Both the position numbers and the translations under genes were made by a program. Under the pieces are notes generated by a model. The model saw only the letters and a list, made by a program, of their open reading frames with translations. It did no database searches and was not told the DNA's origin. DNA of 20,650 nt, from IMG/VR virus record IMGVR_UViG_3300027971_000266, positions 1 through 20,650 of that record; one strand, written 5' to 3'. This DNA comes from a virus. Shown one piece after another: positions 1-17,774 of this stretch; position 1 is the first letter of the stretch; each line of letters opens with the position of its first letter.

Positions 1-1983
1 CCCAACCAAAGTCAATGCCTTAGTAATTGTTAATACGGGGTTTATTAAAGTGCCGTCACCTGTTGTGTCGTTTCCGTCTTTGCCAACATGAATCTCATTT
101 GCGTAGATAGAGTAGTTACCTACTGCTCTACCAGTACCACCGTTTGCTACGGGCAATGTGCCAGAGGTTATCTGGTTTGCGTTAATTGCGATTGCTGTGT
201 TAGATGCTAAAGTCAATTGACCTTGTGCATTGACTGTATAGTTTGGAACAGAAGAAGCCGAACCATACGCGCCAGCAGTCACTGCCGTGTTGGTGATGTT
301 GAACTGCGTACCCGTGAGGGTCAGTCCTATGCCTGCGGTGTAAGAGCCTACACCAGCAAATTGAACCCAAGTGATGGGGGTTGTGCCTAAAGTGCCGCCA
401 GCGTTGGAGGTACAGACCCAACCAGTGTCAGCGTATACGGTTCCTTGCTCAATGAAGGTGAACGCTCCCGGCACTTCCAACCAATTGTCCATATCCGTTG
501 CGCGAGTCCATGCACCCGCCGCAACCACATAAATTCCGTTGTTTTGGCTCAATGTCTGGTCTTTAACCAAACACCTATCCCCAGCAATCAACGCTACGCC
601 ATCAATCGTCTGCGTTCCAGACAACGTGATGTTTGCCGTTGTTGCCGCCACGCAAGAAGCCTTGGGGTCTAGTCCTTGCGCTACTGAATCAACATACTGT
701 TTGGTTGCCAACTGCAAAGCAGATGTCGGGTCTTGCGTTACGGCCACAGAAGTCAGCCCAGCCAACGTGGATGCGGTGCCGCCAAGACTCACCGCGGTGC
801 TTCCAATTGTGACCGACGAATTTGTCAGACTGCCGTTGCCAATGTTTGATAGCGTATTGGTCGCACCGCTAATCGAAGTGCCGGCAAACGTCGTAATCGT
901 GCCGCCGAGGCTGACCGCCGTGCTGCCAATCGTAATTGTTGAATTTGTCAGGCTGCCATTCGCAATATTCGTTAGAGTATTTGTCGAACCGTTAATGGAC
1001 GTGCCGGTCAGCGTAGTGATCGTGCCACCAAGCGACACTGAGGTCGAACCAATTGTGATCGCGCTATTCGTAAGCCCCGCGTTTGGAATCGTAGCCACGG
1101 CAGTGAATGCGCTCGTGCCATTCCCGACCAGATACCCGGTCAGTGTATTTGCCCCACTACCGCCATTCGCAACATTCAATGTACCACTGAGTGTGATGGC
1201 TCCGGACTGCGCGGAGCTGGGCAGAAGACCAGTCGTGCCACCGCTGAAAGTAGTAACCCCACCTGCAGTCGAGAACTGCCTCCAGGACCCAGAAGAGTAC
1301 CCGTCAAAAGTCTGCGTATCAGTGTTGAAACGAATTTGGCCTTGCGACCCTCCCGGCTGCTGTCCTGTGGTACCCAAGGGGATCGTGACCGATGCAGTGC
1401 CCGGAAGGACAGCGTTATCGCTGATCGAAATCGTCGGGCTACCGCTGATCCCGTTACCATTCGCGACCCCGATCTGGCTCGAAGTACCCAAAATCTGGGT
1501 GCTCGAGACTGTGCCACCCGTGCTCAGGGTCACCAGCCCATTCACACTAGCATTGGCAAACCCGAGAACCTGACCAGTTAAAGACAGCGTTGGATTCCCG
1601 GAAATCCCGTCGCCATTCGTGATCGAAATACCGTTGCTGCCGACAGTGATCGACCGCGAAGTGAGCGCGGTGGAGCTGGTCTTTACCTGTAGCCCAGTGC
1701 CAGAGCTCACCAGAGACAACAGAGCGCCAGTGGTCGTGACATTGAGCACGCCCTGAGCGCCACCGTCTGCAAGAGTCAGACCATTAGTCGCCCCGAGACG
1801 ACGGCTATTCGCAAGAGTTGGCTCCTGGTTTACCGTCAGGAAAGTCTGCGTCTGAGCTGGAGAAGCAGCGATCGCGGCAGTCGTCGTCTGAACGGTAACG
1901 CCATTCTGGACGATCGGGACAGCTTCTGTTCCAGTGATCGTTCCTGCGGCTGGTAACTGAGTGATCGTGACTTGTGCTGACAT
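1..1983 (-). CDS. Tail fibre / tailspike protein, N-terminal 661 residues (runs off the left edge)
   Basis: The minus-strand frame stays open from the ATG at 1983 to base 1, giving 661 codons with no stop. The protein is rich in Ser, Thr, Gly, Ala and Asn, typical of fibrous trimeric fibres. Residues 302 to about 365 hold tandem 41-residue repeats with the core LTNS-ITIGST-VSLGGT. Around residue 426 comes ATKQYVDS, a junction motif common in phage fibres. It is followed by a domain of about 105 residues (TLSGTQTIDGV, NNGIYVV, WTRATDMD, YADTGWVC) that I recognise from many fibre proteins. An ANGGTG linker follows, and the last 30 residues (HVGKDGNDTTGDGT...TITKALT) look like the start of a parallel beta-helix of the pectate-lyase type. 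It likely binds, and perhaps degrades, a host surface glycan. The start overlaps the previous stop as TAATG. The distal part is AT-richer than the proximal part. Confidence 0.88.
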   Translation of the reverse strand, partial: MSAQVTITQLPAAGTITGTEAVPIVQNGVTVQTTTAAIAASPAQTQTFLTVNQEPTLANSRRLGATNGLTLADGGAQGVLNVTTTGALLSLVSSGTGLQVKTSSTALTSRSITVGSNGISITNGDGISGNPTLSLTGQVLGFANASVNGLVTLSTGGTVSSTQILGTSSQIGVANGNGISGSPTISISDNAVLPGTASVTIPLGTTGQQPGGSQGQIRFNTDTQTFDGYSSGSWRQFSTAGGVTTFSGGTTGLLPSSAQSGAITLSGTLNVANGGSGANTLTGYLVGNGTSAFTAVATIPNAGLTNSAITIGSTSVSLGGTITTLTGTSINGSTNTLTNIANGSLTNSTITIGSTAVSLGGTITTFAGTSISGATNTLSNIGNGSLTNSSVTIGSTAVSLGGTASTLAGLTSVAVTQDPTSALQLATKQYVDSVAQGLDPKASCVAATTANITLSGTQTIDGVALIAGDRCLVKDQTLSQNNGIYVVAAGAWTRATDMDNWLEVPGAFTFIEQGTVYADTGWVCTSNAGGTLGTTPITWVQFAGVGSYTAGIGLTLTGTQFNITNTAVTAGAYGSASSVPNYTVNAQGQLTLASNTAIAINANQITSGTLPVANGGTGRAVGNYSIYANEIHVGKDGNDTTGDGTLINPVLTITKALTLVG
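766..1080 (-). repeat. Tandem 123-bp (41-aa) repeats in the tail fibre
   Basis: Two complete units (1080-958 and 957-835) and a partial third (834 to about 766) repeat in register every 123 bases. On the plus strand the matching landmarks GCCGCCAAG, GCCGCCGAG and GCCACCAAG begin at 778, 901 and 1024. Each unit encodes LTNS-(A/T/S)(I/V)TIGST-VSLGGT, then a more variable part ending in TNTL-NI. The copies are diverged at the nucleotide level, so this is an old duplication under protein-level selection. It is probably a beta-structured shaft segment. Confidence 0.85.
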
Positions 1984-2327
1984 TAGATCGGACTCGGTGC
2001 AATGGTGTCGTTGTTCCCGTTCGTTTCCGGGGTCTGCGTGTTCTGCTGAGTCGAGATGTAGAACTCGTTATTGCCCGTTGTGATCAGGTAATCGTCATTA
2101 GCAGCGACGCTAACGTCTGGACGAGCAAAACGCAAATTGATTCGCTCGGTTTGCCTTGCGGGGAGTCGGTATGGGTCCAAATTGTCCCGGCAACCTTGAT
2201 CACACACCCTCAAACCGGGGAAATTAGTGTCTGGACCCAAGGAAACAAACGTGCGTTTCATCTTGCATCGGTCACAAACACCGATTGCAAGATTATTCAA
2301 CCCACGAGTATCGAGGAATACTGGCAT
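1983..2327 (-). CDS. Small zinc-ribbon-like virion protein, 114 aa
   Basis: The N-terminal half carries four cysteines arranged as a probable zinc site: C18-DR-C21 and C42-DQG-C46, separated by 20 residues. Conserved-looking stretches YRLPARQTERINLRF and RPDVSVAANDDY follow. The tail is Asn/Thr-rich and probably disordered. The gene sits between the head-tail adaptor and the tail fibre and overlaps both neighbours by one base (TAATG at 2327 and again at 1983), so its translation is probably coupled to theirs. By position it could be a small connector or fibre-attachment protein. Metal binding is inferred from cysteine spacing only. I do not recognise a named family. Confidence 0.8.
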   Translation of the reverse strand: MPVFLDTRGLNNLAIGVCDRCKMKRTFVSLGPDTNFPGLRVCDQGCRDNLDPYRLPARQTERINLRFARPDVSVAANDDYLITTGNNEFYISTQQNTQTPETNGNNDTIAPSPI

Positions 2328-3400
2328 TATGCTGTGTACACTCCGATTCCGGGAGTGAAAAAGATCGGGGAACGGTCGCGCTCTTCCTGTTCTGCCTGAT
2401 ACAAGTACTTTTCAGCTTGAGACTCAAGGTATTGGATCCGCTCCACTGCAACACCGGGCAATTCCATGCTCATCTGGTGTGCAAGCATGGATTGCACCGC
2501 CAAATACCACCTTTGTGGTATGGCAAGCTCGTCAGTCAGAGCGCCAACGTCTTGAATTTGGCTCGAATACCACACCACCATCTGAACGAATGGGTCAGAA
2601 GGCACCGGCCAAAGGTAAAGAGTGGGGTATGGGATGGTCCGATCGAACCAGAACTGATAAGGTTGGTTCGCGGTGAAATTCTTGTTGGGCAGATTGGTGT
2701 AATCGTCACGATTCAGCCGTGCCATCTGGATTTCGCGACTGTTGTTTCCGATGTACCACTCGCGGAGAGCGAGCGTGGTGCCCCCGGAAGCAACAATTCT
2801 GTAATAAATCACATTCTGGCCAGGATCGATGTCGGTCCAGACCCACTGATTGTCGGTGACAGTGACTGCGCCTAAGTTGTTCAGAGTCAACCAAGTCGAA
2901 CCGTCAATGGAATACTGCAGCGAGATGTTCCAATTTGCCGAACCACCACCCGCAATGTAGGGCAAAAACCCGATCGAACCAGCATAAATCGGGTTAGCAG
3001 TGCCGAAATTGACTGTGAAGTTGCCGTTTGCACTTGTCTGCTGGCAATAAGTGTCAACGTCTCCGTCGTAAAGATTAGCTACGACCCCACCCGCCGAGGA
3101 TGAATATGACCCTACAGGTCGCGCCATGGTGCGGTAAAGCACATTCAGCGCATCATTAGCCTGCACCGGGAGCGAGTAGATGTACTGATCCGCATTTACG
3201 CCAAGCACCAGCTTGGTGATAGCAAAGTACTGGATGCCGCGATTTATGAGATTCGAAAGCAGGAAACCAAGACTTTGTTTGGCCGAGAGCTGCTGCTCAG
3301 AAGTCAGCTCCTCGGCGAGCTTCCCGCACCGGCGAGCGCCGTGATCAATGAATGTCTGTACGTTGATTATCGTTTGGGCGTACGTACCAGATGTCGACAT
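2327..3400 (-). CDS. P22 gp4-like head-tail adaptor with an inserted discoidin-like domain, 357 aa
   Basis: Residues 1-92 and about 222-357 read as one split domain of the P22 gp4 / packaged-DNA-stabilisation type. The N-terminal part has GTYAQTIINV and a helical bundle. The C-terminal part has RDDYTNLPNK, PYQFWFDRT, LYLWPVPSDPF, YSSQIQDVG and PQRWYLAVQSMLAHQ, then a Glu-rich helix ending RDRSPIFFTPGIGVY. Such proteins bind below the portal ring and close the filled head. Residues about 95-218 interrupt this fold with a beta-rich segment (ANLYDGDVDTYCQ, NFTVNFG, WNISLQYSIDGSTW, VIYYRIVASG) that looks like an F5/8 type C (discoidin, galactose-binding-like) domain. The usual family member is shorter, which fits an insertion. 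The ATG directly follows the upstream TAA. Confidence 0.87.
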   Translation of the reverse strand: MSTSGTYAQTIINVQTFIDHGARRCGKLAEELTSEQQLSAKQSLGFLLSNLINRGIQYFAITKLVLGVNADQYIYSLPVQANDALNVLYRTMARPVGSYSSSAGGVVANLYDGDVDTYCQQTSANGNFTVNFGTANPIYAGSIGFLPYIAGGGSANWNISLQYSIDGSTWLTLNNLGAVTVTDNQWVWTDIDPGQNVIYYRIVASGGTTLALREWYIGNNSREIQMARLNRDDYTNLPNKNFTANQPYQFWFDRTIPYPTLYLWPVPSDPFVQMVVWYSSQIQDVGALTDELAIPQRWYLAVQSMLAHQMSMELPGVAVERIQYLESQAEKYLYQAEQEERDRSPIFFTPGIGVYTA

Positions 3401-4075
3401 TTAGCATTTCCACCGAGCTAATGACGCAGCTTTGCGAGTAGGACGACCTTTCTCATCTTTCATCGGACCTGGATGACCTTTCATTCTTGCGCAGAACGAA
3501 TCCTTCCTTGGCCCACCCCCAGGCTGAGGAGCCTTGAGGTTGCTTCCTGTGGCGTTATTATACTTCGCTCTGCCTTTTGCAGTCAGCCCTGCGCCTTGAG
3601 AAACAGGCAATTTCTCACCACGACCGACAGAAAGCACCGGGCCACCTTCTTTCATCTTTGCAGTCTTAGCAGACTCACGGAATGCTTTGGCGGTTGGAGC
3701 GCCGGGTGCACCGGGTTTGCGCATCTTCTCGCCAGACCCTTCAGCTATGCGCTCTCGTTTGGCGTGGATGTTAGCGTACAACCCGCCGCCTTTCATTTTC
3801 TTACCCAAGAACAACTTATCAACCATTTCCAATCTTTCTGGCTTAGTGGTTTCTTTGTTGATAATGCTCAGACGCTCTGACTTGCTTTTCCCCTCGTCGT
3901 AAAAGCCTTCTTTTTTCAAAGACTTAACCACCCCGCCGTCTTTGAACTTCTTGCCTTCGTCAGCCTTAGCAAACTCTTTGCCGACCGACTGAGCGATGCC
4001 AACTTTCTTAGCGAACTTCGGGTTGTGCGCAACCGCCTCCATCAGGCGGTGTTGGGCTGGTGATTTGCTTGGCAT
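3401..4075 (-). CDS. Lysine/glycine-rich phage protein with a DUF6321-like C-terminal domain, 224 aa
   Basis: The N-terminus MPSKSPAQHRLMEAVAHNPK and the C-terminal 60 residues (GLTAKGRAKYN, TGSNLKAP, SFCARMKGHPGPMKDEKG, RPTRKAASLARWKC) match a conserved domain I know from environmental phages as DUF6321-like. Function is unknown. Between them are three GG motifs (KDGGVV at 45-50, MKGGGLY, MKEGGPVL) also seen in neighbouring proteins. The protein is very basic and could contact DNA or act in assembly, but this is inference. I place the start at the ATG at 4075, two bases after the upstream TGA. A TTG at 4087 would add four residues but lies within the preceding gene. There is no good Shine-Dalgarno, so coupling is likely. 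Confidence 0.8.
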   Translation of the reverse strand: MPSKSPAQHRLMEAVAHNPKFAKKVGIAQSVGKEFAKADEGKKFKDGGVVKSLKKEGFYDEGKSKSERLSIINKETTKPERLEMVDKLFLGKKMKGGGLYANIHAKRERIAEGSGEKMRKPGAPGAPTAKAFRESAKTAKMKEGGPVLSVGRGEKLPVSQGAGLTAKGRAKYNNATGSNLKAPQPGGGPRKDSFCARMKGHPGPMKDEKGRPTRKAASLARWKC

Positions 4076-4077
4076 GA

Positions 4078-4362
4078 TCAGCCGCAAAAAATAGTTACTG
4101 CCGCAGTACCGGGCAATGTGACATGAATGTCTGTTTTAAATCTAATCCCGTTTCCGGGAATTATGTTTGCAAATGGGTTATTTGTATTGGCTGGAATATT
4201 AAATCTTAAAAGAACGGTGCCGCCGGATCCGCCATCCCGAAAAATTATCTCTCCAGCCGTTCCGCCAGACAAGGCTTGGTACCCAGCAAGATTGGCCGCG
4301 CCAGCGTAAATCGTTCCCGTCGCATCCCTGTGCGCCGAAAATACATTAGTTAATGTTGACAT
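4078..4362 (-). CDS. Small virion-associated protein of unknown function, 94 aa
   Basis: The product is small and beta-prone, Gly/Ala/Thr-rich, with no transmembrane segment or signal peptide. It ends TLPGTAAVTIFCG. Sequences such as TNVFSAHRDATGTIYAG and GSGGTVLLRFNIPA suggest a compact beta sandwich, as in small decoration or fibre-linked proteins. No family was recognised. The start is set at the ATG at 4362 because GGAG lies six bases upstream. A TTG at 4374 would overlap that site. The gene is AT-richer than its neighbours (22 of 60 G+C in 4141-4200) and is preceded by a UUCG hairpin. Confidence 0.72.
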   Translation of the reverse strand: MSTLTNVFSAHRDATGTIYAGAANLAGYQALSGGTAGEIIFRDGGSGGTVLLRFNIPANTNNPFANIIPGNGIRFKTDIHVTLPGTAAVTIFCG

Positions 4363-4401: not shown

Positions 4402-5361
4402 TTAACACGCGCCGCCAGCCTTTTTTGGCATCATGAAGTTGCGAGCCGGACCGTACTTTTCGTTACTGTCCTTCTTCGCAGCCTTCATCGTGGGTGCAAA
4501 CTCAGCATTATTGATGGCCTGCAATTTTGCGTTGTTCGGCGCAACCTTGCCGCCCTTCTTATAAGTGCCAGAAAGCATCGAAATTGCCACAGGTGCTGAC
4601 ATCGGTTTTTTACCCTGTTTCATCTGCTCCGGACCGCCGTCGTCTTGGACGCGACCGCCCTCAGCAAACTTTTTTGCGGCACCGCCCTTGCGGTATCCAC
4701 CGCCGTTGGATTTTGCAACACCGCCGGTAGCATACCCACTCATGCCGCCGCCCATCATGGCTTTGCCACCTTTTTTGTAACCACCACCGTTGCCGAGTTT
4801 CACGTCGCCGGTTTTGGCAGGTGAATTGTCAGGGCGAGCTGTACGCATCTTGGTGGAAGTTGCAGCGCCGGATTCATTTTTGATGATTCCATTGGCTGCA
4901 ACCTTGCCGCCGTTTTTGTAACCGCCTTGACCGTTGACCACGCCGCCAGTGGCGCATTTCCCAGCCATTCCACCCGAAGCGAGCTTGAGCTTGGTGCCCT
5001 TGCCGCCTTTGTGCTCTTGGGTGTCGTGCTGCTTGAAAGCCTTCTTGATCATGGCTTTGTCCTGCGCCTTGTCCATGGAGCCGCCCTCTTTCATCATAGG
5101 ACGTCCCATAGGAGCTGCCGGCATAGGCATGCGACCCGGTGCAGTAGGGTTGGTCATAGGAGCTGGCGTACGAGCCACCCTACGGGCTGCCATAGCACGT
5201 GCAGCGGCGGGGTTGGCTACAGGGGTAACCGGACCTGCTGCACCCATTGCGCCGCCGTTCATTTTGCCAACCGGCATTTTAGCCGATCCACCTTTCTTAA
5301 GATGGAGAATAACCGATGGCTCGGTTGTTTCCATCTTTACCATTGGCTTGAACTGACCCAT
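4402..5361 (-). CDS. Glycine/lysine-rich low-complexity phage protein with GYKxGGKV repeats, 319 aa
   Basis: The protein is basic, low in complexity and probably mostly disordered. About a dozen GG motifs recur, including GYKNGGKVAANG (147-158), GGGYKKGGKA (192-201), GYATGGVAKS (209-218), GGGYRKGGAA (220-229), KFAEGGRV (231-238) and TYKKGGKVAPNN (266-277). Residues 36-90 are rich in Ala, Pro and Met. A charged helical stretch (MDKAQDKAMIKKAFKQHD) lies at 96-113, and the chain ends KKAGGAC. A strong ribosome-binding site suggests substantial production. No enzymatic domain is visible. A role in contacting DNA, scaffolding or assembly is inference from charge and location among head genes. Confidence 0.78.
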   Translation of the reverse strand: MGQFKPMVKMETTEPSVILHLKKGGSAKMPVGKMNGGAMGAAGPVTPVANPAAARAMAARRVARTPAPMTNPTAPGRMPMPAAPMGRPMMKEGGSMDKAQDKAMIKKAFKQHDTQEHKGGKGTKLKLASGGMAGKCATGGVVNGQGGYKNGGKVAANGIIKNESGAATSTKMRTARPDNSPAKTGDVKLGNGGGYKKGGKAMMGGGMSGYATGGVAKSNGGGYRKGGAAKKFAEGGRVQDDGGPEQMKQGKKPMSAPVAISMLSGTYKKGGKVAPNNAKLQAINNAEFAPTMKAAKKDSNEKYGPARNFMMPKKAGGAC

Positions 5362-6680: not shown

Positions 6681-7595
6681 TTAGACTCCCGGCGTGCCGT
6701 ACATTGCACGTGGATCGGTCCAGCCCACTTGATAACGCTCGGTTGCTTTGTAACGCATGGAGTCGGTTTCGAAGTCACCTTCCATGGTCTTCTCAAGCGC
6801 ACGACGCATCAGGAGCTTCATGCCCTCTGGAGCATCAGTCTGAACCCACCAAGAGTTGGCGTTGGTCAGACGCGACAGAACAGCGGCACCTTCGTCCAGC
6901 AGCCCGATGGACTTGACTGGGTTGATGTCGTTGTTAGCCGTGCCGGCACGCAACACGCTCTTCAGGAGGACCTCGGCTTGGAACACGTTACCCGGTGCGA
7001 CCACCAGTTGACGCGGGACCAAACGGATTTTCTTCCCGTTGTTGTCCACAGCTTGACGGATCTGGATGAGCATCTGCTCGAGAGACGTCTGGCTGAGATT
7101 GGCGGCGGTTGCGAGCTGGTTCGAGAACGTGCCACTCACGATCGGATGCGAGGTGTTGATCAGCGAAACGCCATCACCACCAACATACGACGAGTTGAAC
7201 GCACGGTTCAGGACGTTTGCGCTAAGAGTCTCTTTGGTCTCAATCAGGGACTGAGCCAAGTGACGAGCGTAAACTTGGCCAATACGGATGTGGTCGCCGT
7301 CTTCGACCAGCACTTTGGTCAGCGCGAACGCCAGACCATAGACGTTGTACACGTAACGCTGGAGGAAGAGCACGCCACCTTGCTGGTACGAAACCGGAGT
7401 TCCGTCGGGCAATTGCGGCGCAGCGCCGAATCCATAAAGGACAGGCTCTTCGTGGTAGTTGCGGGGAATACCTTGTTGCTCGCGGAAAACCCGCGACCAT
7501 TCGTCGGTACGTTGGTCATAGACTCCATCAAAGCATTCATTGAGGATTGGCTCAACAATACTTCTAAAGTCCGTACTGCGCATTGGGGCTGCCAT
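6681..7595 (-). CDS. Major capsid protein, 304 aa
   Basis: This forms the icosahedral head shell. Recognisable stretches include MRSTDFRSIVEPILNECFDG at the N-terminus, GGVLFLQRYVYNVYGLAFAL, the loop DGVSLINTSHPIVSGTFSNQ, LEQMLIQIRQAVDNNGKKIR, LVPRQLVVAPGN and the C-terminal ETDSMRYKATERYQVGWTDP. These resemble the HK97-fold coat proteins (Mu gpT-related group) found widely in environmental tailed phages. About 300 residues is normal for the fold. The best ribosome-binding site of the window, downstream position from the scaffold candidate and a terminator just after the stop all fit the most abundant virion protein. No N-terminal delta domain or maturation protease is evident nearby. Confidence 0.93.
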   Translation of the reverse strand: MAAPMRSTDFRSIVEPILNECFDGVYDQRTDEWSRVFREQQGIPRNYHEEPVLYGFGAAPQLPDGTPVSYQQGGVLFLQRYVYNVYGLAFALTKVLVEDGDHIRIGQVYARHLAQSLIETKETLSANVLNRAFNSSYVGGDGVSLINTSHPIVSGTFSNQLATAANLSQTSLEQMLIQIRQAVDNNGKKIRLVPRQLVVAPGNVFQAEVLLKSVLRAGTANNDINPVKSIGLLDEGAAVLSRLTNANSWWVQTDAPEGMKLLMRRALEKTMEGDFETDSMRYKATERYQVGWTDPRAMYGTPGV

Positions 7596-8780: not shown

Positions 8781-9749
8781 TTAGCTCCGGTTCATGCGGT
8801 CATATTCAGCGTAGCGGCGAATCATCTTGTTGCGCTCGGCGAGGTTGTCCCATCGGCCAGCATCTTTGATCGCTTTCACGCGGTCTGGTGAAAGATAGAA
8901 TTCGTTCGACTTGGTAGTCGCTCGACTCTCTCGACCAGAACTAGTTACCACAGATCGGGGCCTCCTATTTGAAGATCTGTCATCTTGTTCGGTATTATAA
9001 CGGTGTGGAAGGTATTTCGACAAACGATTGTCAAGTTCTTCCCAATATTCACTGCTTTTTGGGTCCCAACCCTCTTTGACCAGACTTTCGTCGATCTTGG
9101 TGGCGACCTGACTGTCGGTGTCGCCGCCTTCGGGATCGAACCAATCGTTCCGCGCCATCCAATCTCCCGCATGCCGCTTGAGCATGGGGTCGGGTGCTTG
9201 TGGAACATTCTTCTGCTGAGGCTCGGAGACCACCTTCTTTTTCAGCGCCTCAAGAGCTTCGACTTGCCGCCGAGACTCATACCATTGCTCTTGCGCGTCG
9301 GCCAGAGCAGCGCCATTGGCCATCTCGGTAGCCTCTTTGATCTTCAGCTTTGCGTACTGAAGTTTCAAGTGGCCATCCTCGATCGCCTTGTCGATCCGGG
9401 CGAGATCCGAGCCAGCGGTGCGCTTTTCGAGCACAGCGAGCCGGTCAGCCATCTGCTCATTTTGACGCTTGAGCGCATTGATCAGGTGGTTGGACTCACT
9501 CGCCTTGGCTTTGTGAATCTGTTTCTTGAGCTGTCGCTCTTCCCGACGAGCGACCCGGATTGCTTCCCGTTCCGGGTCAATATCCGGAATGTTATCAGCT
9601 CCGTTGTCGAAGTTGTCAGAGCTCGACGAGGACTCTTGACGATTTGAATCCACGTCGATATTGGGAAATCCAGGTTCGACAACTGAGACGACTGCGGACC
9701 CATCGTTGCTTTCCGAAACCTGGAGATCTAGTTTTTCCGTAGAGTTCAT
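8781..9749 (-). CDS. Probable capsid scaffolding protein, 322 aa
   Basis: The architecture is that of a scaffold: an acidic, Ser-rich disordered N-terminus (1-60), long charged helices predicted to be coiled coil (about 62-175, including EREAIRVARREERQLKKQIH and MADRLAVLEKRTAG), a linker, and a basic C-terminal helix-loop-helix (YLSPDRVKAIKDAGRWDNL, then ERNKMIRRYAEYDRMNRS). In P22 a basic C-terminal helical hairpin of the scaffold binds the coat. Length is close to P22 scaffold (about 300 aa). It lies between portal and coat genes, the standard place. The ATG overlaps the upstream stop as ATGA. No catalytic motif of a head protease is seen. The assignment rests on architecture and order, not on a recognised family match. 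Confidence 0.68.
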   Translation of the reverse strand: MNSTEKLDLQVSESNDGSAVVSVVEPGFPNIDVDSNRQESSSSSDNFDNGADNIPDIDPEREAIRVARREERQLKKQIHKAKASESNHLINALKRQNEQMADRLAVLEKRTAGSDLARIDKAIEDGHLKLQYAKLKIKEATEMANGAALADAQEQWYESRRQVEALEALKKKVVSEPQQKNVPQAPDPMLKRHAGDWMARNDWFDPEGGDTDSQVATKIDESLVKEGWDPKSSEYWEELDNRLSKYLPHRYNTEQDDRSSNRRPRSVVTSSGRESRATTKSNEFYLSPDRVKAIKDAGRWDNLAERNKMIRRYAEYDRMNRS

Positions 9750-10177
9750 AGGAATGCCTTCACTTTCAAAGGATCACCTGTCACCTTTGCGATGACTTCG
9801 TGATCGTTGAACACGCTGAATAGTGCGGTTTCGCCCAGATGCGGGTCGCCATAGATCACTTCCCAGCGATCGCCACCCCACTTAGGCATACGCACGTAAT
9901 CACCCACCTGGATCCAGTTGCCCTCGGGCCATGGAGCGAGAGTGTCGCGTTGTTTGAAAGCGAGTGGGCCGAGAGCGATGACTTTCGCTACTTGGTTGTT
10001 CCACTTTTCGGTTTCCTTGGTCTCTTCCACAAGCATAATGCCGGAGTTGGTCACCGTCTTCCGTGTCTGTCGCCATTGCACGAGAATACGTCCACCGACG
10101 GGCATTGCACCGGGATCGACTGCAGGAAATGCTTCCCGCAACGCTGCTTCATTCGAAGCGTCCCGTTCAATTGTCAT
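9746..10177 (-). CDS. GroES-like co-chaperonin, 143 aa
   Basis: Residues 27-137 read as a Cpn10 fold. VGGRILVQWRQ is strand one; TRKTVTNSGIMLVEETKE (38-55) corresponds to the mobile loop with a hydrophobic IML tripeptide where GroES has IVL; NQVAKVIALGP matches the V-A-V-GPG region; VGDYVRMPKWGGDRWEV matches the GD-V strand; and FSVFNDHEVIAKV is the terminal strand. GroES is about 97 aa. This one has about 26 extra N-terminal residues and an insert (AFKQRDTLAPWPEGNW). Phage co-chaperonins such as T4 gp31 replace GroES on the host GroEL to fold the coat protein, which fits its place between portal and scaffold. No GroEL is present in the window. Confidence 0.82.
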   Translation of the reverse strand: MTIERDASNEAALREAFPAVDPGAMPVGGRILVQWRQTRKTVTNSGIMLVEETKETEKWNNQVAKVIALGPLAFKQRDTLAPWPEGNWIQVGDYVRMPKWGGDRWEVIYGDPHLGETALFSVFNDHEVIAKVTGDPLKVKAFL

Positions 10178-10352: not shown

Positions 10353-10511
10353 TTACTTCTTTTTGGCCTGAGACAGGCCGCCAGACTTTGCTGCGGGTTT
10401 GGCTGGAGCCGACCCACCCTTCATCGAAGAGCCGTTGATTTTCACCCCCATAGCCATGCGCTTGTGCTGGGGAACCATCTCGCTCATTTGCTGAGAGTCA
10501 TTGGATGCCAT
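10353..10511 (-). CDS. Very small basic KGG-type protein, 52 aa
   Basis: An ATG at 10511 opens 52 codons ending in TAA at 10355-10353. The protein is MASNDSQQMSEMVPQHKRMA at its start, then contains SSMKGGSAPAKPAAKSGG and ends SQAKKK. It is strongly basic and Ala/Lys-rich. AGGAGG five bases upstream of the ATG is one of the best ribosome-binding sites in the window. The frame overlaps the portal end by 14 bases and abuts the next ATG (TAAATG). These features make it a real gene despite its size. The KGGS motif recalls the larger GG-rich proteins of this phage. Function is unknown. Confidence 0.75.
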   Translation of the reverse strand: MASNDSQQMSEMVPQHKRMAMGVKINGSSMKGGSAPAKPAAKSGGLSQAKKK

Positions 10512-13011
10512 TTAGCCCTCCTAAGGCTTGTTGTGCGCTTTGTTGCGCGGCCAGAGCGGTTTGCTGCTGCTCGTGTTGCAGAATCGCAGCGTCGTGCGTC
10601 AATTCTGCGGATTTGATTCGCTCCTCAGTGAGTCGGTCGGACGCATTAAGTGCGATGTCGATCTGCTGCTGCCGGTTCTTAGCCAGCATGTCAGCTTTGA
10701 GTTTCTCTTTCTGCAGTGTCAGGTCGCCCATGTCTCTGACCTTGCGCCGTTCGGTTTCGGCCATCGAGGTTTGCAGGATGACCTGATCGCCCGGATCCAT
10801 CGGCGGCGTGGGCTTGAGCTTCTGCAGCAACTGCATGATCTGCTGCATTGCGGGCATAACCTGCTCGAATGCGATTTTAGAGTCTTCCTTGGTGTGCTGC
10901 GAAGCCAGCGCATACAGCTTATCGATCTCGCCGGTGATCCCGGCGATGTCGTAGTCTTTCACCGGCTTGCCGAGCGATTGCTCCACGTACCCATTCATAT
11001 GCCCGAGATACCACAGCATGATGTGCTGTTTGAAATGCTCCAGGAACATCGGCAAAAAGGTCGGCGCAATGAACGGACTGCCGCCGAGCATTGGGTTGAG
11101 CGCGAAGTCCAAATGCGCTTGCAGGTGCGCGAGTTGGTTCTGGTGCGGGTACGCGAACGCAGCCCGACCGATGCACATGGCGGCATTCTCTTCAGCCGCA
11201 TTGATCTCCATGGGTTCAGCGACTGCCGGCATCAGCTCGGTGATGTTCGGGATCTTCATCTGCTTGAGCATCCGCTGCACGACTGCGCGTCGGTCGAACA
11301 GGTCTGGGAACTTGTCGGCGAGCGTCATCACCGCTTGGCTCTGCGCCATGCGTTGAGTTTCAGAGAAGATGTGCGGGTCGGACACCGGCACCACGTCGGT
11401 GTTGCGATTGAAGTCTTCACGCTTGATGTCGAGCTCAGCAACGATGTCGCCTTTGCGCTGGTCGTCCAGGTACCAACGGTTGATCCGCTGCAGCACCATG
11501 AGCAGCTTGCGCTGGCTGTTATGCAACCGAGCGTGAATCGCCGAGAACACTGCAGCGCCCTGCTCGATCAGAGCTTGCGTGGTGCCCACCGGCGCATTGT
11601 TGGTTACGTCGGCGATCTTTTCTTCCGACGTGGTGACCACGCCTTTGGCCGCAGTGGTGAGGAAGCCGAGCAGCTCCAGCAACACCGGGCTAGGCGGGTT
11701 GAACGGCATCGGCATGGCGAGCTTGCGGATGTCGTCCACGCCGGGAGCACCTTCGATTTCAGTCACCTGCGTGACTTCAACGTTCTGACTCTGCCCCGAG
11801 ATCTTAGCTCCCTTGAGCTTGAGCATTGTCGCGGCGTTGTTGATGTGAGCGGTGTCCAGCAGAGCGCGCAATGACCCTGTAAGAGCAGCAGTGAGACCGC
11901 CTATAAGATGAGGCAAACCGATAGCGTAAGCACCGCGCCAAGGGATGAACTTGAACTCGATCAGCCAATCCAACTTGGCCATCGACTCGTCGCCTTCCTC
12001 CCAATTGCGGTACAGGCCCAACACCTCGGTGTTCAAGTCGTCGATCATCAGGATGTACGGAGCCAACTCGCCTTTGCTGTAGCTGTCGTCTTCGAGCGCC
12101 AAGTTCGTGTAGACGTGGAAGACTCGGCGCACACCGTCTTCGTTGTCCTGAAACTGCTTGCCTTCGATCTTGTCGTTGGCCTTTTCAGAAGCAGTCATGG
12201 TCGGTTCTTGCGTGGCCCGAGTGATCACCACATCTTTGTACAGACCACGACTAACCCGGTCGTCGAACTCTTCTTGCGTGATATCTTGAACTTCCGTCAC
12301 GCGTTGCGCGGTGTAGAAGTTGGCAGCCGAGAACGGCAACATGATGTTGTCGATCGGCACGAACTCAGCGCATGGGCGACGTTTCTTCTCGTCGTACCAG
12401 AGTTTCATGAACTGGCTTCCACCCAATGGCAGCTGAGTGAGCATCTGCTCCTGCTCGTCACGGAACTCCTCGATCTGCTCGGTGAGCTGCCAGTTCATGT
12501 AATCACGCTTGCGGTCCGCGCGAGCTTCGGATTCCTGATCCACGTCGCCTATGATATTGGTGCGCACCGGACCGTCGGGCGGGAACAACTCTTTGATCGC
12601 CCGAGATTCGAAGTCGATACAAGCCTCAGCCATCACAGGGTGCACCACTTTGGACGCACCCGAGAAGGTCGCCCCACCCGGCGCATCGTGGCCCAACCCG
12701 GTGCGCCGCAGCCCCTCTTCGTACTGCTTGTCGCGCTCTTTTCTGGCTTCCTGGTCTTTTTCAATCAGGTCGATGTACTTCAGCGCGATCTTGTCCAGGT
12801 CCCAATCATCAATCTCCTCGGCCAGATTGGCGTAGAAGTCCTGATCCTCCTTGGGACCTTTGAAATCGTCCATGCGGACGATCGCTGACCCGTCGGGCTG
12901 CTCTTCAACCTCCGCGAACTCGTCGTCCAGGTCCAGCACCAGCCCCTCTTCGTCCTCCGGCTGGGTGGTGGGGTCTTGTTCCTGCATCGGGTCGATTGGC
13001 ATTTCAGGCAT
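10498..13011 (-). CDS. Portal protein (P22-type), 837 aa
   Basis: It forms the dodecameric ring through which DNA enters and leaves the head. The N-terminus is acidic and disordered (about 1-60). The body has DAPGGATFSGASKVVHPVMA, EACIDFESRAIKELFPPDGP, ADRKRDYMNWQLTEQIEEFR, LPLGGSQFMKLWYDEKKRRP and AEFVPIDNIMLPFSA, features of large portal proteins. Further on, PHLIGGLTAALTGSLRALLD and NAPVGTTQALIEQGAAVFSA fit the stem and crown regions, and a long Gln/Ala-rich helical C-terminus (about 720-837) resembles the barrel helix of P22 gp1. P22 gp1 is 725 aa, so this is a long member. It follows the cargo genes rather than the terminase directly. AGAAGA near the start is a modest ribosome-binding site. 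Confidence 0.9.
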   Translation of the reverse strand: MPEMPIDPMQEQDPTTQPEDEEGLVLDLDDEFAEVEEQPDGSAIVRMDDFKGPKEDQDFYANLAEEIDDWDLDKIALKYIDLIEKDQEARKERDKQYEEGLRRTGLGHDAPGGATFSGASKVVHPVMAEACIDFESRAIKELFPPDGPVRTNIIGDVDQESEARADRKRDYMNWQLTEQIEEFRDEQEQMLTQLPLGGSQFMKLWYDEKKRRPCAEFVPIDNIMLPFSAANFYTAQRVTEVQDITQEEFDDRVSRGLYKDVVITRATQEPTMTASEKANDKIEGKQFQDNEDGVRRVFHVYTNLALEDDSYSKGELAPYILMIDDLNTEVLGLYRNWEEGDESMAKLDWLIEFKFIPWRGAYAIGLPHLIGGLTAALTGSLRALLDTAHINNAATMLKLKGAKISGQSQNVEVTQVTEIEGAPGVDDIRKLAMPMPFNPPSPVLLELLGFLTTAAKGVVTTSEEKIADVTNNAPVGTTQALIEQGAAVFSAIHARLHNSQRKLLMVLQRINRWYLDDQRKGDIVAELDIKREDFNRNTDVVPVSDPHIFSETQRMAQSQAVMTLADKFPDLFDRRAVVQRMLKQMKIPNITELMPAVAEPMEINAAEENAAMCIGRAAFAYPHQNQLAHLQAHLDFALNPMLGGSPFIAPTFLPMFLEHFKQHIMLWYLGHMNGYVEQSLGKPVKDYDIAGITGEIDKLYALASQHTKEDSKIAFEQVMPAMQQIMQLLQKLKPTPPMDPGDQVILQTSMAETERRKVRDMGDLTLQKEKLKADMLAKNRQQQIDIALNASDRLTEERIKSAELTHDAAILQHEQQQTALAAQQSAQQALGGLNGIQ
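10517..10522 (-). promoter_or_regulatory. Ribosome-binding site of the 52-aa gene
   Basis: AGGAGG lies five bases before the ATG at 10511, inside the 3' end of the portal gene. It is the main reason for accepting the short downstream frame as a gene. Confidence 0.8.
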
Positions 13012-13023
13012 GATGTCTTCTGG

Positions 13024-16000
13024 TTAAACCAAGTGATCGAACGGGTTGGTTGAGACTCGGCCACCTCGGGCATAGTCACTCATCTGCGCGGGTATATTCG
13101 GTCGCCCGATCCACGGCTTGCCGGGGGTGGGCTGCTTGGTTGCGCTGTTCAATATAGCTTGAATACGAGATTCTAAGTCTTCTTGCGACGCCGCGTCCTT
13201 GGCGAGCTGCACGCCCAACGCATTGTTGTGAAGGTCTTGGTCGTAGTCTGGCGGCATCTTACCGATGCCGAGCATGTAGCCAATCGTCTTGACCGGCGCA
13301 TTCCCGTGCTCATGCGCCAGACCGGCGATCTTAGCGACAGTTGGTCCGAATTTCTGCGCCATCATTCCAGAGGCAAGCATGTGGCGTGCGGCGTCTTGCT
13401 GCGTCCATTCAGACTTCTGCTTGGGGAACATCTGCTTGGAGCGCGACTGCGCGTACGACGATGGGTCGAGAAAGAAGTCGGACTTGACCGAGCCACCTTT
13501 GGCGTAGCCTTCGGCTGGTGGCACGCGCCTAAGCACCGAAGGATCAAGAGCCACGAGCGAAGGCTTTTTGCTCATTGCGTCTTGCACCCGCAGAGAATCG
13601 AACCCGAGATTGCGCAGCTCTTCAACAACTTGAGCCGACTGCGGGAATATTGCGTTCTCGCCCTGCTCCAGGTATTGACCAACTGGAATTTCAGGGTCGT
13701 AAATGCCTAGCTGGCGAGCGACTCGGTAAACATCTTCCTCAGTGCCAGATCTACGGGGTCGCGCCTCAAAAGTGTGCAGCTGAGGAGCATTGGTCGAAGA
13801 CTGGAACTTCTCAACAACCTCCCGCTCTGGGTGTGTGAACAAGCCGGGTCGCGGTTCGTTGAACTCGGCACCGGCGTGATAAACGATTTCCGGCTGCTCA
13901 ATAAAATCTTTCGCCTGATCTCGAGTCATGAATCGAACTGGCGGAGTGCCACCATTCGCTCGAGTCGCTGCAAAGACTTTATCAGCACCCTCTTCGCCGA
14001 ACAGTCTTGTTAAACCTCCATAGCTGCTTGGGTCTCTAAGGTCGAAAATGTTGTAATAGTCCAAGTCATTGACAGTTCCCCAGTCGCCCGAGTTGAGGAA
14101 CTTAACTACAGAATCGCTGATTTTTTTCTTGTATTCAGGATCGCGTTTCTCGTATGCCTTCGATCGATCGCTGTCGAATGAATTGCCCGGAGGCTTGAGC
14201 TCTTCGATGTCAGGCAGATCGATTTGTTTCTTCGGAATCATGGATTCAGCTTCCAAAGAAAGCCCATTCATCAATTCCTGAATCTCAGCAGGGATTTCGC
14301 TAGGGCTACCAAAAGCTTCAAGCTCCACATAACGCTGGGCGTCTTCTGGATTTATACCTCTGCGCTCTAGCAGGGTCTGCAAATTACGATAGTACTGATC
14401 ACCAACAGCGTCCTCTCCTTCCAAAACATCACCCAGATGCATCTGCGAGTGATCGTATTTAGAAGTTGAAATCATCGCCTGTGCATGGGGGCGACCCTCG
14501 GCATCGAGAAGCGCGACGAGCCGTTTGTCGCCAGAACCATAGTGCTGAGCTATGTCAGTGTTCATGGTACACCAGCCACCCGCTTTACCGATGCTGGTGC
14601 AGAGCTTGGTGCCTTTTTCGTCAACGACCTCAGGGATGTCGGCCCAAGTCAGACCAGGCTTTTCAACGAACGACAGCTTAGCAGTTGGATCAACGAGCCG
14701 AGCGTTGGAGCTAAGGTTCTCCATCATGCCAGCTTGCTCGGCCTTGGCAGCCTCGAGAGCTCGCCAGTCATTGATCTCGCTAACGCGCTTGACCGCGTCC
14801 GCAACACTCACCTTGTTTAGCGTTTCGGGCGTGAGTCGCAGGTGCGCTGGTAGCTCTGAGTTGGGCGACAGCGATGCGCGCAACTCGTCTATGAGGTGGT
14901 TAAAATCTAAATCAGAACTGAAAGTTTGAGAGTCGGCTATCCTGTAAATGGGAGTGCTTGGGTCGATCTTTTCGATCCAAGGACTATTCTCCGCCATCTC
15001 AACATTAGGATCCCAATCACCAAGGATCGATTTGAATTCTGGCTTACGGTTTTCAAGTCGCTGGCGACCTAACTGAATATCCTCTTGATAATTCCCAGCA
15101 ATGTTAGGGTCAATCAATCGATCAGACATGGCTTCCCACTCTTCGGCTCTACGTGCGTTGAGCGAATTCTCTTCAGGGTAACCAGCTTCAGCGTGCCTTC
15201 GAACCGCAAAACCCTCTTCTGGGAAACCAGCTGAAAAACGAGCTTCAGTAACGCGCTGTGGTGTCGAAGTTCCCACCACGTTTGATTCAATTCCTCTTAT
15301 TGCAGGACTGTGCGAGTAACCTTGCTCATGCATAAGACGTATCGGGTCATCTGGCGTGCCCATCTCATTGCGCACGTATGGCGCGAGCTTTTTGTCGAGC
15401 CAACGGTTGAGTGGGTCCGCGACGTTTGCATTAAGGCTCTCTATCTCAGCAGGTGCGCGGTTTGGGCCTTGGTAATAAGTTCGTAACGGGCTTAAAGCTC
15501 GAGTTACGCTATCAGGCTTTAATTCAGTTTCCGACCCAGCTAAACGCTTCGACGGCAAATCCAAGTTAATAGGAGGAGCCCAGCTCCCGCCCTTCGGCTT
15601 GACAGCGTACAGCGGACTTGCGCCTGTGGCAGACGCCACGCGGTTAGCTAAGTCGTACGCGGTGTCGCTCCGCGCAGCGGCCAATGCGCCACGCCCAACC
15701 GCCTTGGCTGCTGGCACCGCAGCCTTAGCCACCGCCACAGTTGGTTTAATGGCGAGTGGCGCCACAGCGAGAAGTGCGTCACGCGTTTCTGGCAGCATCT
15801 GGGTGGCTTGCCCCGAGCCAGAATGCAGCTGGAACCCGCCGCTGAGTCGGTCTAGCGTCTTGGCGACTGCAGGGATGCCAGCCAGCTGGCTCAGAAACTC
15901 GGCACCAGTCATCTCGTCCGGATTGCGGATCGTCAGGTTGTGCGCTGCCTGCAGCAGATCGGCGGGTATTCCGTACAGCGGATTGCGCTTGATCGGTTGG

Positions 16001-16107
16001 ATGATGTCCGTGTCGCCGGGTTGCAGCGTCCGCACCGGCTTTTCTTTGTACTGGCCAAAGTCGACAATGTTGGCCAGATCGAAGAACGGGTTGGTTTGCT
16101 CTTTCAT
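13024..16107 (-). CDS. 1027-aa multidomain protein, polyvalent-type, possible injected effector
   Basis: In order: a leader with NPFFDLANIVDFGQY; an Ala-rich hydrophobic/amphipathic region (107-147); a long divergent charged region; residues about 486-560 with LTWADIPEVV, LCTSIGKAGGWCTMN, RLVALLDAEGRPHAQAMIS, like the WCT/PcfJ-type phage domains; residues about 738-862 with EIVYHAGAEFN, GLFTHPEREVVEKF, LRNLGFDSLRV, LVALDPSVLRRV, like ART-PolyVal ADP-ribosyltransferase domains; linker YAKGGSV; then about 904-975 with DAARHMLASGM, AGLAHEHG, DQDLHNNALG, like DUF6973; and a C-terminal YARGGRV motif. Large mosaic proteins of this kind are thought to enter the host with phage DNA. Catalytic competence is unproven: no clear catalytic Glu was placed in the ART-like part. 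The start overlaps the upstream stop as ATGA. Confidence 0.85.
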   Translation of the reverse strand: MKEQTNPFFDLANIVDFGQYKEKPVRTLQPGDTDIIQPIKRNPLYGIPADLLQAAHNLTIRNPDEMTGAEFLSQLAGIPAVAKTLDRLSGGFQLHSGSGQATQMLPETRDALLAVAPLAIKPTVAVAKAAVPAAKAVGRGALAAARSDTAYDLANRVASATGASPLYAVKPKGGSWAPPINLDLPSKRLAGSETELKPDSVTRALSPLRTYYQGPNRAPAEIESLNANVADPLNRWLDKKLAPYVRNEMGTPDDPIRLMHEQGYSHSPAIRGIESNVVGTSTPQRVTEARFSAGFPEEGFAVRRHAEAGYPEENSLNARRAEEWEAMSDRLIDPNIAGNYQEDIQLGRQRLENRKPEFKSILGDWDPNVEMAENSPWIEKIDPSTPIYRIADSQTFSSDLDFNHLIDELRASLSPNSELPAHLRLTPETLNKVSVADAVKRVSEINDWRALEAAKAEQAGMMENLSSNARLVDPTAKLSFVEKPGLTWADIPEVVDEKGTKLCTSIGKAGGWCTMNTDIAQHYGSGDKRLVALLDAEGRPHAQAMISTSKYDHSQMHLGDVLEGEDAVGDQYYRNLQTLLERRGINPEDAQRYVELEAFGSPSEIPAEIQELMNGLSLEAESMIPKKQIDLPDIEELKPPGNSFDSDRSKAYEKRDPEYKKKISDSVVKFLNSGDWGTVNDLDYYNIFDLRDPSSYGGLTRLFGEEGADKVFAATRANGGTPPVRFMTRDQAKDFIEQPEIVYHAGAEFNEPRPGLFTHPEREVVEKFQSSTNAPQLHTFEARPRRSGTEEDVYRVARQLGIYDPEIPVGQYLEQGENAIFPQSAQVVEELRNLGFDSLRVQDAMSKKPSLVALDPSVLRRVPPAEGYAKGGSVKSDFFLDPSSYAQSRSKQMFPKQKSEWTQQDAARHMLASGMMAQKFGPTVAKIAGLAHEHGNAPVKTIGYMLGIGKMPPDYDQDLHNNALGVQLAKDAASQEDLESRIQAILNSATKQPTPGKPWIGRPNIPAQMSDYARGGRVSTNPFDHLV

Positions 16108-17774
16108 TCTGGAGTCAACTTCAAAATGCTTTGTATAAACTCAGCTGGCAAACCTGAGTAAGTGGTCATCACTTTCATTTTGTCTTCAGGAGAAAATGGC
16201 AATTCATTTTTAGACTTTGCAAAATCTGAGTATTTTGCAATGTCCTCTATCCACTTGTCTTTATAAGCCTCGCCGTGCCGTTTGAAAAGCTCGTCCACAA
16301 TTGTTTGTGGGTCGGTTTCTGGCATTTCATTTTTAAGACTGTCGATCAGGTCGTATGCCTTTCCTCTCGACGAAATGGTGTGATCTACTCCAGGCCACCT
16401 TGGAACTCTATCAAGTGCAACATTCAAAAGTTCAGCGGGAAAGTTCAACTCAGAACGCAGCAATTCGAACTGCATGTTGTCAGGCATGTTGGGGTTCGAT
16501 GATTTGATCTCATCAAACCGTTTGCTAACTTGTTCGGAAAGAGCTTTGGTGAAATCACGATTAGTGTTTGCAAACCGATGCTGCATGAAAGTTTGCGGAC
16601 CTAATTCAGAATACGCTTTTTTAAAATATGGATTCTCAAGATTGTTAAGCCAACTAAGTGCTTGCGAGGCATTCTGTTTCAAAGAAACACTCGAGTACGG
16701 ATTACTATCAATTTTGATTTTTGGCGTGTTAATGTTTTTCAGTGCATCAGTTATCAGCTCGGGAGTATTGTATTCGTCACCCGCTTGCCGCCAAACGTCG
16801 TCGAGCATTTCGTCAGGAACTATGCGTTTACGCAATTCACCTAAGAAAAGATTGTCGCTTGGTCCTCGCTCCATTTCTTTGAATCGATCGAACAGAATGT
16901 CGTGCGACCTCGCAATGACGTCATTCGGGTCGGCGTCTGGACCGAGTTCTTTCATCGCCCTTTGCAGGCTTTCATTTACAAACGGTTCATCTTCAAACAA
17001 ATCGACATATGAAGAAGATCTTGCAGCTTCCCTGCCACGACCATCTTCGAGGATTTCCTGTATCCGGAGTTCGGTACCTGCTGTGTCTGACAGCTCGTCG
17101 AGAAGTTTCTGCCCACTTCCCACCATCTTTTTGACCATGCTGGCTGGCAAGCCCGTCTCTCTTGCAATGGTCTGCGGATCGAGACCAATCGCACGCGCTG
17201 CTTCGGCACCGCGTCTGGATTCAAGATTGATTAGCTCAGCCCAAACAGCGGTTGCATATTCAGGATCAAGCATTTCGATAGACGTGTCAATGGGATTAAG
17301 CAGGTCAAAATTTTCCATCCTGCGTTCCCAGTTGGAAAGAATTTTGTAAGCTTCTGCTGCGTTACGCTCATTGTTATAAATTGAACTGACGTAGTCAGCG
17401 ATCTTGCTGGCCGCCGCTGCCTCGTCAATGACAGGCTTGGTGAGTTGTTTGGTGGCTTGTTTGAGTGCACCGGGCAAAGTGCGGCGCAATGCAGCTGATG
17501 CTGTCGCCTTGACTCCTTCGCCCAAAAACTCGCGACGCGTCGTGGGCTTAGCCATCTTCTCAGCAATCACTTGCTCGATCGCGCCGATGACGGGAGGCGA
17601 CTCGGCTGGCGCCACCACAGCTGGCAGGTGCGTCTCGGCCTGAGCTGGCAGCATCACGCTCGACTGGCGAGGCAACCCGAGCACGCCACGGCGCGACAGG
17701 TTCACCGCTTCTTCAGCTGGTGCGCTCTTGCTGAAAAGTCCGAGTATGCCTTTGAGTTTGCTAGGATCAGCCAT
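16104..17774 (-). CDS. 556-aa phage protein of unknown function with Tat-like RR motifs
   Basis: Residues 1-110 are Ala/Pro-rich and contain NLSRRGVLGLP (26-35) and TTRREFLGEGVKATASAAL (78-96). The latter closely resembles a twin-arginine signal (S/T-RR-x-F-L plus a mildly hydrophobic Ala stretch), but 77 residues precede it. The rest is helical and charged with no recognised domain. It includes AIGLDPQTIARETGLPASMV, which could be a small helix-turn-helix, and repeated short acidic helices. The end is TTYSGLPAEFIQSILKLTPE. The gene overlaps the oxygenase gene by 8 bases and the 1027-aa gene by 4 (ATGA), so the three are co-translated. Its core is distinctly AT-rich. An internal or ejected virion protein is plausible from size and position. 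Confidence 0.8.
   Translation of the reverse strand: MADPSKLKGILGLFSKSAPAEEAVNLSRRGVLGLPRQSSVMLPAQAETHLPAVVAPAESPPVIGAIEQVIAEKMAKPTTRREFLGEGVKATASAALRRTLPGALKQATKQLTKPVIDEAAAASKIADYVSSIYNNERNAAEAYKILSNWERRMENFDLLNPIDTSIEMLDPEYATAVWAELINLESRRGAEAARAIGLDPQTIARETGLPASMVKKMVGSGQKLLDELSDTAGTELRIQEILEDGRGREAARSSSYVDLFEDEPFVNESLQRAMKELGPDADPNDVIARSHDILFDRFKEMERGPSDNLFLGELRKRIVPDEMLDDVWRQAGDEYNTPELITDALKNINTPKIKIDSNPYSSVSLKQNASQALSWLNNLENPYFKKAYSELGPQTFMQHRFANTNRDFTKALSEQVSKRFDEIKSSNPNMPDNMQFELLRSELNFPAELLNVALDRVPRWPGVDHTISSRGKAYDLIDSLKNEMPETDPQTIVDELFKRHGEAYKDKWIEDIAKYSDFAKSKNELPFSPEDKMKVMTTYSGLPAEFIQSILKLTPE

Follow-up and report, generated by a model that had tools for sequence, protein, structure and literature searches.

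The beta-domain of the head-to-tail adaptor is the fibre dock in T7 and SU10, and it is lacking in P22, Sf6 and HK97 (PMC6702177, PMC9509320). For the adaptor of KP32, an adhesive, lectin-like role of the beta-sheet has been proposed (PMC5440376). In siphophages, Dit, tail and neck proteins carry CBM insertions, two of which bound host cells (PMC6669499), and an evolved Dit was found to enhance adsorption to lactococci that produce EPS (PMC10688798). In the open-licence literature, we found no description of a discoidin, galactose-binding or CBM domain in a podophage adaptor. The adaptor described here indicates that these proteins, thought to be conserved parts of the channel and joint, can carry a whole sugar-binding-type domain on the dock-type domain.

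The locus lies in a 20,650-base virus record (the window, meaning the whole stretch of DNA that was analysed) whose minus strand carries a block of tailed-phage structural genes. Its features are as follows.

1-1983, minus strand: tail-fibre gene, cut by the window edge (N-terminal motif ITQLPAAGTITGTEAVPIVQNGVTVQTT)
1983-2327, minus strand: 114-aa cysteine-rich protein adjoining the adaptor (open reading frame)
2327-3400, minus strand: head-to-tail adaptor gene, 357 aa (open reading frame and translation, SU10_adaptor, phrog_12985, model, and the fold of an insert-free homologue, which resembles podophage adaptors in the PDB)
2330-2746, minus strand: C-terminal part of the adaptor core, with the remaining beta-domain, helices 3-4 and tail (model; SU10_adaptor 211-336)
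2747-3118, minus strand: inserted F5/8-type-C (discoidin/CBM32-like) domain, residues 95-218 (Pfam, alignment, pLDDT, PDB matches)
2759-2761, minus strand: residue E214, which lies on the last strand of the insert and is a probable second calcium ligand (conservation)
3050-3067, minus strand: loop D112-T117 (DGDVDT), resembling the CBM32/F5-8C calcium loop (conservation; putative calcium role)
3119-3400, minus strand: N-terminal part of the adaptor core, with helices 1-2 and the first beta-strands including 81-93 (model and alignment to insert-free relatives)
3401-4087, minus-strand block: DUF6321 protein, adjoining the adaptor gene
6681-7595, minus-strand structural block: major capsid protein match
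10498-13011, minus strand: portal protein, presumed partner of the adaptor (phrog_1216, E 2.8e-17)
18416-19840, minus-strand structural block: terminase large subunit

Several neighbouring genes deserve mention in their own right. A Cpn10-like, GroES-type co-chaperonin is encoded at 9746-10177 between the portal and capsid genes (Pfam Cpn10, 3.6e-7), and the annotation of MW202545 has a GroES-like co-chaperonin too. The interval from terminase to portal (13024-17774) holds two large open reading frames of 1027 and 556 aa, with DUF6973 in the former as the sole domain recognised. The 319-aa protein at 4402-5361 has repeated Gly/Lys-rich motifs and gave no PHROGs match at E 0.001. Residues 444-568 of the fibre resemble 9nx3, a solved 'capsid decoration protein' (E 1e-10), and also match several head-decoration PHROGs, so fibre and head decoration have a module in common.

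Adaptor core and inserted domain

The preliminary description had placed a discoidin-like, galactose-binding-like segment in the adaptor on the basis of the motifs YDGDVDTYCQ, SIDGSTW and YYRIVASG, all of which are present in the translation. Our searches bear out this reading, with a Pfam match to F5_F8_type_C and a Foldseek match to CBM32 at E about 5e-7. In the window protein, F5_F8_type_C covers residues 100-206 (profile positions 6-114 of 127) at an E value of 5.6e-5, and SU10_adaptor covers residues 211-336 at an E value of 0.009, both below the Pfam gathering cut-offs for this protein alone; phrog_12985 matches residues 222-314. Among 57 relatives, SU10_adaptor was found in 47 (best E 8.6e-14) and F5_F8_type_C in 19 (best E 9.4e-8), and since both families recur in this way, we consider the two assignments, made from sequence profiles, sound at the family level. 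The insert-free relative CRP-902 matches SU10_adaptor at 1.2e-13, above the cut-off. Searching the PDB with the single protein sequence gave weak matches only, led by a CBM32 (E 0.026). A profile search matched beta-N-acetylhexosaminidase chains over the insert and found no adaptor structure; the core was therefore assigned from its fold.

That the segment is an insertion, and that the adaptor resumes cleanly after it, had both been proposed and both agree with the alignments. In phage relatives of 226-231 aa, both flanks align and precisely this segment is missing; the core picks up at about residue 222 (REIQMARLNRDDY). The AlphaFold model of the window protein is confident (mean pLDDT 83.9), particularly in the inserted domain, where 10-residue blocks reach about 89-96. 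Helices 14-24 and 34-53 precede the beta-domain and helices 296-313 and 319-341 follow it, and the models give the core beta-domain between helices 2 and 3 about 90-110 residues. The insert sits between strand 81-93 and the strand ending at 225, and in the model it is a whole jelly-roll F5/8-type-C domain placed in one beta-turn of the beta-domain. In the PDB it comes closest to CBM32 domains (E 4.9e-7; 2jda, 5zu6 and 4a42), with TM scores by target length of about 0.7-0.8 and of 0.80 for 4a42.

A 226-aa insert-free relative, modelled at lower confidence (pLDDT 73), shows the same elements; at the insert site, a short turn links strands 80-90 and 99-103. It resembles the adaptors of the cyanophage A4 (E 1.7e-8), GP4, VP1, Pa223 and SU10, and also those of DEV, crAss001, N4 and KP32. 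The segment is thus not an integral part of the adaptor fold in all family members, as the insert-free relatives fold alike. A search among predicted structures of viral proteins gave A0A6J5RSL2 as the closest match over the full length (350 aa, 24% identity, TM 0.85 by target); its record calls it an uncharacterised protein, so relatives have been deposited without being described. Our computations show a two-part architecture with a defined insertion point, and taken alone, the architecture of an adaptor core with an F5/8-type-C insert is very probably correct.

Two earlier statements need adjustment. The name 'gp4-like' is imprecise, since here a beta-domain separates helices 2 and 3 of the core, whereas P22 gp4 has no fibre-dock domain. 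The protein had also been described as buried, which holds only in part, as the insertion is in a dock-type beta-domain that faces outward in T7 and SU10. By structural analogy, the insertion site appears to correspond to the T7/SU10 fibre-dock domain, and we infer that the insert projects from it. The binding of glycans or whiskers suggested in the preliminary description is a hypothesis at this stage.

Distribution and evolution of the inserted domain

Relatives of about 352-357 aa include MW202545 (58% identity), and the Caulobacter phages RW, RLK, KcrB and GB2A have relatives of 328 aa, so that an adaptor function can be assigned to a gene annotated as hypothetical in these four phages. 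Phage relatives of about 215-231 aa without the segment occur in CRP-901/902, HTVC023P, DSL-LC04, ct7L0027, ct2G2228, QDWS535 and Pag-Yong1. Close relatives in bacterial and archaeal genomes were searched for and none were found. Viral contigs fall into clades A (window-like) and B (MW202545-like) with 351-361 aa, clade C (Caulobacter RW-like) with 328-331 aa, three insert-free clades with 226-227, 231 and 220-222 aa, and HTVC027P-like adaptors with 309-312 aa. Detectable relatives of the 114-aa cysteine-rich protein adjoin clade C adaptors, and its gene overlaps in clades A and B.

The scan of related phages proposed in the preliminary description gave a clear pattern, the insert being present in three clades and absent from the other sampled lineages. 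In the core tree, the domain-bearing clades A+B+C are monophyletic with a support of 100, and the domain is absent from all lineages sampled outside them. Every sampled member of the three clades carries the domain, although with the best 80 loci taken per scan, rare insert-free members within clades A-C could escape notice. The computed distribution is single and monophyletic, and together with the absence from the other sampled lineages this makes a single gain the simplest reading; the domain was probably gained once and then trimmed in clade C. A large group of environmental phages, the cultured Caulobacter phages among them, has the domain as a fixed feature. These phages are largely uncultured, and from the named records our impression is that they come mostly from freshwater.

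In clade C, the stretch around residues 100-125 that holds the D112 loop has been lost. D112 and T117 are present in 157/157 sequences of clades A and B, and D112 is deleted in all 78 clade C sequences (78/78). Position 214 is E in 156/157 sequences of clades A and B and mostly Q in clade C. The D112/T117 loop and E214 are described here as a putative calcium site. Other conserved insert positions in A and B besides D112, T117 and E214 are Q121, G126, W186, W188, Y200 and R201. The RW-like adaptors (L083:4001-4984; L171-L250), annotated as hypothetical, carry a trimmed discoidin domain in which part of the N-terminal third and the calcium-type loop are missing.

The insert is under purifying selection that is 1.5-3 times weaker than in the core, the dN/dS values for core and insert being 0.03 versus 0.10 in clade A, 0.04 versus 0.075 in clade B and 0.19 versus 0.28 in clade C. 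For the same identity in the core, identity in the insert is lower by about 7-15 points.

Possible roles of the domain

We narrowly favour an accessory glycan-binding ring over fibre anchoring as the role of the domain, and the two readings are close. The adaptor combines a helix bundle with a fibre-dock-type beta-domain, into one beta-turn of which a CBM32-like domain has been spliced. By homology to T7 and SU10, twelve copies would form a ring under the portal and the extra domains would point sideways where the tail fibres dock; we infer both the position of the domain in the ring and the copy number from these analogues. In a less certain step, the domain would bind polysaccharide on or around the host cell and would thus be an accessory adhesion module near the head, as with the CBM insertions in the 'evolved Dit' and the neck proteins of siphophages. 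A sugar-binding module is in keeping with the fold, with the calcium-type residues and with the faster evolution of the insert. Against this, every clade member among the best 80 loci per scan carries the domain, with no gain, loss or swap, a pattern not usually expected of an optional adhesion module, and the trimmed form in clade C lacks the D112 loop and mostly lacks E214. Glycan binding as the main function is a plausible proposal to which we give somewhat less than even odds. If host polysaccharide is bound, adhesion in short-tailed phages would not be confined to fibres and spikes.

Nearly as likely is that the domain is an enlarged fibre dock that holds the N-terminus of the fibre encoded downstream by protein-protein contact and not by sugar binding. 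The insertion point lies in the beta-domain corresponding to the dock to which fibres bind in T7 and SU10 (PMC6702177, PMC9509320). Downstream of the adaptor, a conserved motif from the fibre N-terminus is found in 66/69 loci of clade A, 73/77 of clade B and 54/73 of clade C, at a median distance of about 350 nt in A and B and 550 nt in C. The same motif is found in 0/234 loci of the lineages without the domain, with about 3 kb downstream examined. In addition, no clade member among the best 80 loci per scan lacks the domain, and the trimmed form persists in clade C. However, the association of fibre and domain goes back to one evolutionary event and so gives no independent support, and the view downstream extends to about 3 kb. 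In clades A and B, the divergence of the fibre N-terminus tracks that of the adaptor core (partial r 0.52) and hardly that of the inserted domain (0.14), and this distance-correlation test does not support a direct co-evolutionary link between domain and fibre N-terminus. T7 and SU10 also dock their fibres without such an insert. If fibres are bound, this would be a previously unrecorded docking mode.

A structural brace or decoration at the neck, contacting the capsid vertex, the portal or neighbouring adaptors and having no external ligand, is an unlikely explanation. Such a part would fit the strictly vertical inheritance and the purifying selection, and HTVC027P-like adaptors hold a different domain in a neighbouring loop, indicating that this surface tolerates added domains. 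Many related phages, however, build the same neck without the domain, the insert evolves faster than the core, and CBM32-type features are retained in clades A and B. That the segment is an artefact of annotation, assembly or chance, such as two genes erroneously fused, could be suspected from the two sub-threshold Pfam scores of the window protein but has a negligible probability and is refuted by related loci, as the same continuous reading frame occurs in hundreds of contigs and in MW202545 and the Caulobacter phages RW, RLK, KcrB and GB2A, dN/dS is well below 1 on both parts and the single-chain model is confident.

Comparison with known systems

The phage in the window is presumably short-tailed, as its adaptor fold resembles that of short-tailed phages. 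The record of MW202545 is labelled Siphoviridae, and the RW cluster has been listed with a tape-measure gene (PMC11053796); the annotation of MW202545 as viewed names no tail-tube or tape-measure gene. The closest described adaptors are SU10 gp11, T7 gp11 and KP32 TTPA, which, as here, have a four-helix bundle whose helices 2 and 3 flank a beta-domain, a flexible C-terminal tail and a similar place in the structural block. In contrast to the present protein with its ~124 extra residues in one turn, they are about 190-230 aa long and have no F5/8C or CBM32 domain. P22 gp4 is likewise a helix-bundle adaptor under the portal but lacks the fibre-dock beta-domain that holds the insertion here (PMC9509320, PMC6702177).

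Pelagibacter HTVC027P-like adaptors (309-312 aa) share the core and also have an added domain in the beta-domain, but this domain is unrelated, lies one loop upstream (before strand DLLESSYR) and has a separate origin. An insertion at the identical site was considered for HTVC027P and rejected on the alignment, which places its insert in that upstream loop. The added stretch of the HTVC027P-like adaptors (L088:455-1390; L495-L574), ATALTIPVASVAQMPDSGKIKINNEIMQYSS..., upstream of the discoidin site, has matches in the 'tail tube B' of Skadi and in the neck protein of a cyanophage. Another added domain is seen in the adaptor of phage 023Pt_psg01 (L087:374-1468), which has an N-terminal extension of about 120 residues before the core.

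With CBM32/F5-8C domains, the insert has in common the jelly-roll, with TM up to 0.80, the DGDxxT loop and the last-strand Glu, but it is embedded in a virion adaptor and is trimmed in clade C. The lactococcal evolved Dit, TpeX and neck-passage CBMs likewise place a carbohydrate-binding-type module on a virion structural protein, and some of these bind host cells or promote adsorption to EPS-producing hosts. Those phages are long-tailed with Gram-positive hosts, the modules, whose reported CBM match is mainly BppA, sit on distal tail, major tail or collar proteins and not on a podophage portal adaptor. We tentatively propose that podophage adaptors serve as a platform for added domains and that, in a widespread group of phages, twelve CBM32-type domains may form an adhesion collar close to the head, which would make this collar at the neck the counterpart of the 'evolved Dit' that siphophages carry at the other end of the tail.
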